36,992 nt of DNA from an uncultured Rhodospirillales bacterium (GTDB lineage Bacteria; Pseudomonadota; Alphaproteobacteria; Rhodospirillales; CAJXLG01), in the NCBI GenBank assembly GCA_913055885.1, contig CAJXLG010000004.1, positions 1 to 36,992 of the forward strand, read 5' to 3'. Shown here in pieces: positions 6,349-34,258 of this stretch (within the stretch, counting starts at the first letter, position 1; each line of letters starts with the position of its first letter). A model generated the notes under the pieces. That model saw only the letters and a program-made list of their open reading frames with translations, was not told the origin of the DNA and ran no database searches. Position numbers and translations under genes: made by a program.

Positions 6349-9183
<2,835 letters not shown>

Positions 9184-9184
9184 C

Positions 9185-10150
9185 GTGGCGGCCCCGGCGA
9201 ACCCGCACGACAAGCTTTTCCAGGCGCTCCTGGACGATCCGGAACGGGCGCGGGCCCTTTTGCGGGATCATCTGCCGCCGGCCATTGTCGCCGAGCTGGC
9301 TGACGATCCGCCGGAGCCCGTCGAGGGCAGCTTCGTGGACCAGGCCCTCCAGGGCAGCCAGAGCGACCGGTTGTTCCGGATGGCGCTGAAGGACGGCCGC
9401 GACGCTTATATCTATACCCTTCTCGAACACAAGAGCCGCCCCGACCCCCGAACGCCGGTCCAGTTACTTACCTACATGGCCCGCATCTGGGAAAAATGCA
9501 TCGCCGAGGCGGAAAGCGGACCGGCGGCCCTGCCCGCCATCATTCCCGTGGTCTTCTATCACGGACAGACGCCGTGGACCGTGCCCGCCTCGGTGGTGGA
9601 CTGGCTGGACGCGCCCGAGGCCGTTCTCGACCACGTGCGGGATTTCCGCTACATCCTGCGCGATCTGGGTCCTGTGGATGACACGGAACTGGCCGGCGAA
9701 CGCGCGGTGCGGGCGGGTCTTGCCGCGCTGAAACACGCTTACGATCAGGGTGTGCCGTTGCGGGTGGTGATCGCCCTGTTGCACGATACGCCCGACGGCA
9801 GCCTTTTCGAGCGGCAGGTGCTGGAATATGTCGGTGCCGTCTACGACATGACGGCCGAGGCCCTGGAAGACGCGGTGAAACAGGCCAAACCGGAACGGTG
9901 GGAGGAGCTCATGGGTACGCCGGCCGAGGAATGGATGCGTCGTGGCGAGGCGCGCGGCAAGGCCGAGGGCAAGGCCGAGGGCAAGGCCGAGGCCGTGCTC
10001 CGCATCCTGCGGGGCCGCTTCGGCACCGTGCCCGCCAACGTCGCGGACCGGGTGCAGGACGCCGATGGCGATGCCCTCGACACCATGCTGGATCGGGCCC
10101 TGACCGCGGAGCGCCCGGAAGAGGTGACGGAGGCACCGGGCCGCCATTGA
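9185..10150 (+). CDS. Rpn family recombination-promoting nuclease/putative transposase (PD-(D/E)XK)
   Basis: [65 protein letters not shown] (E-x-K nuclease motif), [14 protein letters not shown]-terminal GKAE repeats. GTG start 1 nt after the proB stop. Confidence 0.9.
9911..10150 (+). CDS. possible intragenic in-frame small Rpn product (C-terminal region, RpnS-like)
   Basis: In-frame ATG at 9911 preceded by GGTGGGAGGAG (9896-9906; GGAGG ends 5 nt before the ATG); would encode 79 aa [38 protein letters not shown]... Confidence 0.4.
9956..9991 (+). repeat. 3 perfect tandem copies of the 12-bp unit GGCAAGGCCGAG inside the rpn gene
   Basis: Direct reading: (GGCAAGGCCGAG)x3 encoding [12 protein letters not shown]. 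Confidence 0.95.
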
Positions 10151-10209
10151 AGGGCGTGATCCAGGCGTGGCGCGCGGCAAGGTCTTGAAGGGAACAATAG
10201 GGAAGAAAA

Positions 10210-10235
10210 CCGGGGGATATGGCGATATCCCCCGG
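10210..10235. repeat. perfect 11-bp stem-loop upstream of proA
   Basis: CCGGGGGATAT-ggcg-ATATCCCCCGG; followed a few nt later by a second inverted repeat, CCGCCC-ggac-GGGCGG. Confidence 0.75.
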
Positions 10236-10325
10236 ACCCCCGCCCGGACGGGCGGTTGGTGCAAAGCCCCGTCGTCTGCGTTAAGGTACGGCGCGACGGA
10301 ATCGCCAGACAACGAAGGACGACCC

Positions 10326-11609
10326 ATGGCCGCCGAACAACAAAACGAAGAGCAGGACGTTGCCGGCCTGATGCACCAGATCGGGCGCACGGCGCGCCAG
10401 GCCGGGCAGGAGCTGGCGCTCACCAGCAGCGAGGCGCGCACCGCCGCCCTGCGCGCCACGGCCGACGAGCTGCGCAAGCGCAGGGACGCCATCAAGGCCG
10501 CCAACGCCCGGGACCTGGAGGAGGGGCGCGACAAGGGCCTGTCCAGGGCCATGATGGACCGCCTCACCCTCGACGATGACCGCATCGAGGGCATGGCCGC
10601 CGGCGTGGAGACCGTCGCCGACCTGAACGATCCCGTCGGGCGCGAACTGAACGCCTGGGAACAGCCCAACGGTCTGCGCATCGCCCGCGTCGCCGTGCCC
10701 CTGGGCGTCATCGGGGTGATCTACGAAAGCCGCCCCAACGTCACGGCCGACGCCGCGGCGCTGGCCCTCAAGGCGGGCAACGCCTGCATCCTGCGCGGCG
10801 GCTCGGAAAGCTTCCACTCGTCCCGGGCCATCCTCACCGCCCTGGAGAACGGCATGGAGGCGGGCGGCCTGCCGCGCGGCTGCGTCCAGATGGTCCCCAC
10901 CCGCGACCGCGCCGCCGTGGGCGAGATGCTGAAGATGTCCGAGCACATCGACGTCATCGTGCCGCGCGGCGGCAGGTCCCTCATCGAGCGCATCACGCGG
11001 GAAAGCCACATCCCGCTGTTCAAGCACCTGGAGGGCATCTGCCACACCTACGTGGACAGCGCCGCCGACGCCGACAAGGCCGTCGCCCTCGTGCACAACG
11101 CCAAGCTGCGGCGCACGGGCATCTGCGGCGCCACGGAGACGCTGCTGGTGGCGCGCTCGCGCAAGGACGACCTGCTGCCCGCCATCCTGGACGACCTGCA
11201 CGCCGCCGGCTGCGAGATCCGCGGCACCCGGGAGGTCATGCAGGCATGGCCCGGGGCCCACGAGGCCACCGAGGCCGACTGGGACACGGAATACCTGGAC
11301 GCCATCCTCTCCGTGAAGGTGGTGGACGGCGTGGACGAGGCCATGGCCCACATCCGCCGCCACAGCTCCTCCCACACCGAGGCCGTGGTGACGGAGGACG
11401 CCTGGACGGCGGACCGCTTCCTGGCCGGCGTGGACAGCGCCATCGTCATGCACAACGCCTCCACCCAGTTCGCCGACGGCGGCGAGTTCGGCATGGGCGC
11501 CGAGATCGGCATCTCCACCGGCCGCATGCACGCGCGCGGCCCGGTGGGCGTCGATCAGCTCACCATCTACAAGTACGTGGTGCGGGGAAGCGGCCAGGTC
11601 CGGCCGTGA
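10326..11609 (+). CDS. proA: glutamate-5-semialdehyde dehydrogenase
   Basis: [114 protein letters not shown]. Confidence 0.96.
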
Positions 11610-32321: not shown

Positions 32322-32990
32322 CTACCGGAGCGGCCGCCCCGTCTCGTCTTCCGCCCGGCGGGCCACGGCGTGCGCGAAGCCGGGAAGACGGCCTTCGGCA
32401 TCGGGTCGGGCGTTGGCGGCGGCTTCCCGGAGAAGGCTGGATGTCGGCAGAATGGGCGAATACGGGTCGGCGGGGTCCTCGCGCAGGACGCCGTCCATGG
32501 CCGCTTGTCGGTTCTTCACCAGAAACGGGGCGTTGAGGTTCAGAACGGCGATCATGGTCTTTGCCGCCGTGTCCCCGTCGTCGGCGGGCTCGATCGTGCC
32601 GTCCCACAGGAACCGGAAACGGCGCTCGCACGCCGGGTCCTGCGGGTCCACGTGCCGGACGTCGTCGAACCACTTGCCCTTGGCGTGGCCGCACACGCGG
32701 GGTTCCCGGGAATGGCCTTCCCGCTGGCAAGAGGCGTGGAGGTTGCCGTAGTCGAAGATGCGGTCGGGGTAGTCGCGGCGCGGCCGGAAGTGCTCGATGT
32801 GGCTGTCGCCGCGCGCTACCGGTCGGCCACAGTAGCAACAGATCCAGCCCTGTTCGGCCAACAGGGCGTGAAAAAGGGCGTCTTTTTCGGGGTTCTGGAG
32901 ATGGTTCCAGGCGCGCCCGTCGTCGTTCGCCGTCCGGGCAAGCCACGCCGTGAAGGTGGCAGGCGGGCTTCCTTTCGCGACATGTTTCAT
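32322..32990 (-). CDS. ptuB: HNH endonuclease, PtuB-like (Septu / TIGR02646-type)
   Basis: WICCYCGRPVARGDSHIEHFRPRRDYPDRIFDYGNLHASCQREGHS...CGHAKGKWFD: zinc Cys pairs and HNH core; 4-bp ATGA overlap with the upstream AAA ATPase. Confidence 0.85.
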   Translation of the reverse strand: MKHVAKGSPPATFTAWLARTANDDGRAWNHLQNPEKDALFHALLAEQGWICCYCGRPVARGDSHIEHFRPRRDYPDRIFDYGNLHASCQREGHSREPRVCGHAKGKWFDDVRHVDPQDPACERRFRFLWDGTIEPADDGDTAAKTMIAVLNLNAPFLVKNRQAAMDGVLREDPADPYSPILPTSSLLREAAANARPDAEGRLPGFAHAVARRAEDETGRPLR

Positions 32991-34258
32991 GCCTGGGCCC
33001 GCGCCCGTCGGTTCAACACGGCCTCGGCGCGCGCCAAGGGCGGCAGGTCGCCGTAATCGGCCCGCATGCGGTCCAACTCGGCACGCGCCGACTCCGGGTC
33101 CTCATCCTCGATGGCCCGGAACAGGGCGTCCAGTTCCCGTTGGACTTCCGGATTGCGTTCCGCGACGCCGAGCACCTGTTGCAGAAGCAGGCTGCTGTCC
33201 ACGCCGTAGGTCATTTCCGGCTGCTCGGCGGTGATTTCCCCGTTTTCATCCGGATACAATACCCAAACGTCCTCGGCCCGCACATGGCTCAGGACCTGGG
33301 GCGAATGGGTGGTCACCAGGAATTGGCAGTTGGGGAAGATTTCTTCCAGCCTGGGCAGGATGATCCGCTGCCACTTCGGGTGCAGGTGAAGCTCGATCTC
33401 GTCGATCATTACCACCCCGCCGCCTTCCAGCGGATTTTCCAGATGCGGATTCAGCACCGCCAGCCGCCGGGCCAGATCGCCGATGAGGGCCAGGAAGCAT
33501 TGTTCCCCGTCCGACAATTGTTGAACCGTGAGTTCCTCGCCCGATTCCTTCTTCAGGGTCATGCGCAGGGGCCGGCGCCGCACCCGCAGGTCATGAAAGC
33601 CCGTGAAGGCCTCGATGGCCCGCCGAACGGCCGCCAGGGCAACATCTGTGTGGGCAGGGTCGTCCCGGCGTTGTTCGTTTTCCAGGTCTTCCCGCTTGCG
33701 GAACCATGTGAAAAAGCTCCGGAAATCGGCGCCGCCGGGCTCCAGGGCCCCGTCGTAGGCCGTCATGGGATCGTCGCCTACCTGTTGGCGGACGCGTAAG
33801 GGAACATCCACGACGGCACGTTTGACGTCGTAATAGACAGCAGTCGGATATGAGATTTGATTTTCATCACTAGCATAAAAATAATCATTAACAATACCCG
33901 TTACATTGTCCACAGAAACATTATCTATTATCGCACTTACTTTTCTCTTGCTTCTTCTTCGAGATTTTCGCCAAGTGGATTCCCTGCAATACACTAACCC
34001 CTTTGACAGTATATAGCACTTGCTAGAATTATTTTTTAAGTCGTTCTGACCGATAGAACGAGCTTTTTTTGGGGTTCCGCTGATCGCACAGATGACATCT
34101 GAAACAAGAATGGCAACAGCTTCCAAAACGGCGGACTTCCCCGCGCCGTTGGCGCCGACCAGGACCGTCGTCCTACCCAACGGCAAATCAAGGCTTTCGA
34201 TCGCCCGGAAATTTCTCAGGGAGATTTCCTGCAGCCACAGGGGCGAGGTTTCGGACAT
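32987..34258 (-). CDS. ptuA: AAA family ATPase, PtuA-like (Septu)
   Basis: SLRNFRAIESLDLPLGRTTVLVGANGAGKSAVLEAVA (Walker A), QLSDGEQCFLALIGDLARRLAVLNP (signature), GGVVMIDEIELHLHPKWQ (Walker B), QFLVTTHSPQVLSHV. Confidence 0.85.
   Translation of the reverse strand: MSETSPLWLQEISLRNFRAIESLDLPLGRTTVLVGANGAGKSAVLEAVAILVSDVICAISGTPKKARSIGQNDLKNNSSKCYILSKGLVYCRESTWRKSRRRSKRKVSAIIDNVSVDNVTGIVNDYFYASDENQISYPTAVYYDVKRAVVDVPLRVRQQVGDDPMTAYDGALEPGGADFRSFFTWFRKREDLENEQRRDDPAHTDVALAAVRRAIEAFTGFHDLRVRRRPLRMTLKKESGEELTVQQLSDGEQCFLALIGDLARRLAVLNPHLENPLEGGGVVMIDEIELHLHPKWQRIILPRLEEIFPNCQFLVTTHSPQVLSHVRAEDVWVLYPDENGEITAEQPEMTYGVDSSLLLQQVLGVAERNPEVQRELDALFRAIEDEDPESARAELDRMRADYGDLPPLARAEAVLNRRARAQA
33841..34080. 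other. AT-rich segment within the ptuA coding region
   Basis: Hand count 89 G/C in 240 nt (about 37% GC), against visibly GC-rich sequence on both sides, including the rest of the same gene. Confidence 0.9.

Follow-up and report, generated by a model that had tools for sequence, protein, structure and literature searches.

An in-frame internal start in an alphaproteobacterial rpn gene is predicted to give an RpnS-type antitoxin

The closest described systems are the rpn genes of E. coli, in which a full-length nuclease (RpnL) and a small in-frame C-terminal product (RpnS) are made from the same gene. Methionine 244 of E. coli RpnA is the proven RpnS start, and the combined substitutions K240R, E241D and M244L abolish the small product, RpnAS (PMC10327210). 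Published RpnS proteins carry four-residue repeats 8-20 residues after the initiating methionine (PMC10327210), and the RpnAS structure, RpnA residues 244-292, is available as PDB entry 7TH0. Experimental demonstration of RpnS comes from the E. coli genes and from a single C. difficile gene for which E. coli served as the expression host. No report was found of toxicity, inhibition or phage defence for an alphaproteobacterial Rpn protein of the DUF4351 type.

The DNA analyzed here, referred to as the window, is a stretch of 36,992 nucleotides from an uncultured Rhodospirillales bacterium. One of its genes, rpn, was originally predicted to contain an internal antitoxin start. The features considered are as follows.

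8068 to 9183, + strand: proB, directly upstream of rpn, its stop one base before the rpn GTG.
9185 to 10150, + strand: rpn, an open reading frame with a GTG start and its stop ending at 10150, encoding a full-length RpnL-type nuclease of 321 residues.
9200 to 9748, + strand: PD-(D/E)XK nuclease domain (Transposase_31, Pfam), with an invariant D61 and an E81-H-K83 motif.
9900 to 9907, + strand: internal Shine-Dalgarno sequence GGGAGGAG, inside Trp-Glu-Glu codons, duplex energy -9.9 kcal/mol.
9911 to 10150, + strand: RpnS-type internal open reading frame, in frame with rpn, a predicted antitoxin of 79 residues plus stop, its start aligned to E. coli RpnA M244.
9935 to 9937, + strand: a second in-frame ATG with a weaker AGGA-type Shine-Dalgarno sequence, a possible minor alternative start (71 residues).
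9944 to 9991, + strand: four-residue repeats (12-nt repeats in the DNA), in the long first RpnS helix (AlphaFold helix 246-279).
9965 to 10087, + strand: DUF4351 (PF14261), E=3.3e-6, 27.5 bits against a cutoff of 25 when the 79-residue product is searched.
About 10326 to 11609, + strand: proA, downstream of rpn.

The rpn product combines the features of the Rpn family (PF04754 / COG5464), a Transposase_31 domain with its catalytic residues. The Pfam match covers residues 6-188 (E=1.5e-48), and a second match, to DUF4351, lies near the C terminus. Active-site residues were assigned by the known PD-(D/E)XK motif pattern; D61 is identical in all 65 sequences compared and the alignment shows that E81-H-K83 is retained. 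The RpnA model PRK09857 gave 54.7 bits (NCBIfam cutoff 583) and TIGR01784 gave 37.5 bits (cutoff 52.1), and the match to PRK09956 was likewise below threshold. Because neither the RpnA equivalog model nor TIGR01784 reached its cutoff, the protein is, as judged from these profiles, a divergent Rpn relative and not an RpnA ortholog. PADLOC has no model that matched the protein, a phmmer search of the PDB returned chance-like matches only, and a scan of viral contigs for Rpn gave no match; a scan of genome contigs returned two distant relatives.

The ATG at 9911-9913 is codon 243 of the 321, 726 nt or 242 codons from the GTG at 9185, and the frame that it opens runs for 79 codons to the stop at 10148-10150, as had been predicted. 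The DNA 5' of it reads CGGTGGGAGGAGCTC-ATG, so that GGAGG (9901-9905) is followed by five nucleotides (AGCTC), which bears out the spacing originally given. The small product was also said to begin just past the nuclease domain. It does not: the Pfam domain ends at about residue 188, and the product begins about 55 residues beyond that end, after a helical region. The ATG at 9935 was considered as the principal start and was ruled out by its weak Shine-Dalgarno duplex, -5.9 kcal/mol, which 19% of internal ATGs match, and by its unconserved methionine, found in only 12 of 70 homologs. Local RNA folding around the internal start was not unusual (z 0.26). A search of 9100-10350 for sigma-70-like promoters found none, the sigma-70 consensus being possibly not that of the host.

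The strength of the internal signal was evaluated against a background drawn from this genome, 20 stretches of 20 kb and the window, about 437 kb in total. The 16S 3' end was sought in the incomplete assembly and was absent, and the anti-Shine-Dalgarno sequence was therefore assumed. Shine-Dalgarno sequences of this strength occur in 14% of gene-start regions and in 2% of matched internal controls, and this enrichment supports their use by the host. A duplex at least as good (-9.9 kcal/mol or lower) precedes 41 of 1883 internal in-frame ATGs in 257 genes (2.2%), corresponding to a chance expectation of about 0.11 per gene of the length of rpn. Moreover, when the seven upstream codons were recoded synonymously with genome codon usage, 72% of the recodings gave an equal or better Shine-Dalgarno sequence. 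The signal in the single sequence is thus weak evidence and falls short of significance on its own, and the window sequence alone was rejected as proof, both the background and the synonymous shuffles being compatible with chance.

These figures raise the possibility that the Shine-Dalgarno-like run and the methionine are a by-product of a Glu-Glu-x-Met sequence at the edge of a helix, encoded in a GC-rich gene, and that no initiation occurs there. GAG makes up 71% of the glutamate codons of the genome, and recoding usually retains the motif (P 0.72). This explanation was weighed against homologs gathered from the same order, class and phylum and aligned (about 70 relatives), in which the junction reads approximately P-x-E-E-x-x-M/M-S-x-x-A-x-E-W. 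A start codon (ATG, GTG or TTG) is found at the column of the window methionine or one codon earlier in 66 of 70 homologs, and in three of them TTG replaces ATG as the only start codon, which also counts against a by-product. At the first glutamate within codons -5 to -3, GAG is used in 66 of 69 sequences, against 36.3 expected (sd 4.0) from each gene's own use of GAG and GAA. Among the 43 columns with at least 15 glutamates, column 238 has GAG in 44 of 46 (z 6.4) and the next highest column has z 3.1, whereas the glutamate six codons past the start prefers GAA (GAG in 11 of 38, z -3.4). The excess goes beyond mere relatedness, because all alignment columns share one tree. A by-product would not account for an excess confined to the internal-start site, for GAG being nearly fixed at this column even where about half of the glutamate codons are GAG, or for homologs that read GAG GAG GAA GAA at the site, and this explanation is regarded as very unlikely.

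The duplex energies gave the same picture. In 52 sequences of less than 70% identity the energy at the site was -9.2 kcal/mol, compared with -5.8 in synonymous shuffles (z -8.5); with 33 sequences from the first 51 loci, mostly of the same class, z was -6.8. This test is mildly biased in that it takes whichever of two start codons is better. In a control that makes no such pick and slides along the gene, z was -9.5 at the internal start; a second peak of -5.2 lay three codons upstream and comprised partly the same bases, and the remainder ranged from -3.5 to +4.2. All 43 homologs with a start codon and a glutamate at the key column have GAG there, while two of the three glutamates at this column in the four homologs without a start codon are GAA. 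These four (L052, L056, L071 and L072) come from other classes and have a PGEAEHYA-like sequence at the site; a separate rpnS that might compensate was not seen in their examined DNA, and another mode of nuclease control may operate in them. Taken over the alignment, the comparative evidence for an internal start is far beyond chance and indicates that selection maintains the start as a signal in the nucleotides, both within this class and in others of the phylum. The in-frame start and Shine-Dalgarno sequence between the nuclease and C-terminal domains, the arrangement that defines an RpnL/RpnS gene, are both found here.

Shine-Dalgarno-like motifs inside genes have been proposed to slow ribosomes. 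The motif in rpn might then represent a translational pause between domains that aids co-translational folding, with no start of translation, and its location at a domain boundary in the AlphaFold2 model is in keeping with this. However, pausing does not require a start codon just past the motif, whereas 66 of 70 homologs retain one there, and the homologous E. coli site yields a protein (PMC10327210). M243 aligns with M244 of E. coli RpnA, RpnB and RpnE and with M242 of RpnC, and the aligned E. coli start codons all sit behind AAGGAG or GGAGGGGAG. Furthermore, a free-standing gene starts at the same methionine. In one relative (L049:2582-2818) a separate DUF4351 open reading frame lies directly downstream of rpn and begins MSIAIRQWQEEGRLQG at the methionine that is internal in rpn; the sequence ahead of this separate frame is unrelated. 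In another (L060:2545-2808) a free-standing DUF4351 frame, again directly downstream of rpn, is a partial duplicate of the rpn 3' end that keeps GAGGAGG and the ATG, and the nuclease part is missing. Because both copies begin there, they support the methionine as the natural N terminus of a small protein. A pause without initiation is considered highly improbable, and translation of RpnS from the ATG at 9911 in this organism is strongly inferred from the comparisons above.

The C-terminal part of the protein is also of the kind expected for RpnS. A C-terminal domain related to RpnS is present in the form of DUF4351, which was matched by 46 of 55 homologous tails. In the 79-residue product the four-residue repeats start at residue 12, within the published range, and are hypervariable, numbering from 2 to 10 copies among the homologs that have a run; two sequences have none. 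An hhalign comparison of the homologous tails with E. coli RpnS gave a probability of 91.7% (E 7.9e-7), a match that is partly repeat-driven. AlphaFold2 modelled the full protein with a mean pLDDT of 91.9 as a nuclease domain, a helical region, the long helix 246-279 and short helices; confidence is low near residues 241-260, and the fold boundary is at about residue 243. When the 79-residue product was modelled alone, helices were placed at 4-37, 42-50, 53-65 and 69-73. In its layout the predicted fold appears to resemble the described RpnAS architecture, but a Foldseek search of the PDB with the full model and the 79-residue model gave no significant match, and 7TH0 was not returned. The product had been predicted to consist of a GKAE linker and the C-terminal domain; the domain is there, in the form of DUF4351, but GKAE lies in the helix 246-279 and is not a linker.

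The genes proB, rpn and proA are consecutive on the + strand. In four of the seven relatives examined (L110, L111, L113 and L115) proB and proA adjoin or overlap, and this suggests that rpn was inserted between them, into the proline operon. A gap of about 170 bp separates the two genes in L114 and one of about 580 bp in L112; proB was not seen in the examined DNA of L109. Between rpn and proA there is an 11-bp inverted repeat, CCGGGGGATAT-GGCG-ATATCCCCCGG (10210-10235), which resembles a terminator for the minus strand, on which a T-rich run follows it; in about 437 kb of genome sequence it was not found complete a second time. Beyond the window, the genome carries rpn six more times, as copies or fragments (contigs C5, C62, C64, C73, C84 and C161). 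At least one of these adjoins housekeeping genes, hslU- and dapB-like open reading frames around L001 that were read by eye. A close copy on C73 (L004 1-75) breaks off at about residue 218, where it passes into a repeated sequence that two other contigs also carry, as if its antitoxin half had been cut off by a mobile element. The window also contains a Septu-type pair identified by PADLOC, a PtuB-like HNH nuclease (32322-32990, - strand, E 4e-64) and a PtuA-like ATPase (32987-34258, - strand, E 3e-130), with a four-base overlap.

Taken together, the data are best explained if rpn is a genuine RpnL/RpnS gene-within-a-gene toxin-antitoxin module, with its antitoxin and phage-defence roles assigned by homology, a reading to which a probability of about 0.82 is given. 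The gene would make two proteins in one frame. Initiation at the GTG at 9185 would give RpnL, a DNA nuclease of the PD-(D/E)XK type whose C-terminal domain is helical, and ribosomes loading at 9900-9907 and starting at the ATG at 9911 would give RpnS, a long repeat helix followed by the DUF4351 helices. Judging from the E. coli homolog RpnA, the repeat helix of RpnS may pair with its identical counterpart in RpnL, which would hold the nuclease inactive, and infection or another stress may free the nuclease to act against phage or host DNA. Both the binding and inhibition of RpnL by RpnS and the functions in antitoxin action and phage defence are inferred by homology. The Shine-Dalgarno sequence of the RpnL GTG is weak, -5.3 kcal/mol compared with -9.9 for the internal one, and in 54 of 60 homologous genes the internal sequence outdoes the best available to RpnL. 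With a strong internal site and a weak RpnL start, RpnS is expected to be in excess over RpnL.

The internal start could also be real, and RpnS made, in a copy of rpn that is decaying or domesticated and no longer acts as a toxin or in defence. The genome holds several rpn copies, one of them truncated at a repeated element, and the window copy is located in a housekeeping operon; its full-length frame, catalytic motif and Shine-Dalgarno sequence are all intact, and this reading is judged unlikely. More speculatively, and with little expectation that it is correct, translation of RpnL might be coupled to the end of proB, the GTG being one base past the stop and its Shine-Dalgarno sequence weak, while ribosomes load independently for RpnS at the strong internal Shine-Dalgarno sequence, wiring the module into a housekeeping operon. 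If so, the ratio of toxin to antitoxin would track translation of the proline operon and its shut-off.

What is new here is the evidence, at the nucleotide level, of selection on the internal start in this branch. Since the start is conserved at the codon level, the majority of Rpn genes in this group probably carry an antitoxin of their own. The combined GAG and Shine-Dalgarno signature offers a simple means of supporting or rejecting internal starts elsewhere, one that does not require ribosome profiling.

Among known systems, Cas10d/Cas11d of type I-D CRISPR (cited in PMC10327210) likewise gives two products in one frame by internal initiation; the proteins are unrelated, and the second product is a partner subunit and not an antitoxin. 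The free-standing rpnS genes (E. coli rpnES/ypaA and the DUF4351 proteins) have the same domain starting at the same methionine, whereas the window antitoxin is internal only, with no separate copy in the 175-bp gap to proA. The closest likeness is to E. coli RpnA/B/C/E (Zhong et al. 2023, PMC10327210). The E. coli RpnS proteins have 49-60 residues, whereas the window product has 79 and a C-terminal part of the DUF4351 type; the E. coli genes have an internal transcription start, whereas no sigma-70-like internal promoter was found in the window rpn; and the window comes from a GC-rich bacterium belonging to a different class, with rpn between proB and proA. The nuclease family, the internal start at the homologous codon, the Shine-Dalgarno sequence in the codons just upstream, the four-residue repeat helix and the predicted C-terminal helical domain are shared. 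The original proposal that the site follows the E. coli RpnL/RpnS design is thus supported by the alignment to M244, the conserved start and Shine-Dalgarno sequence, DUF4351 and the repeats.
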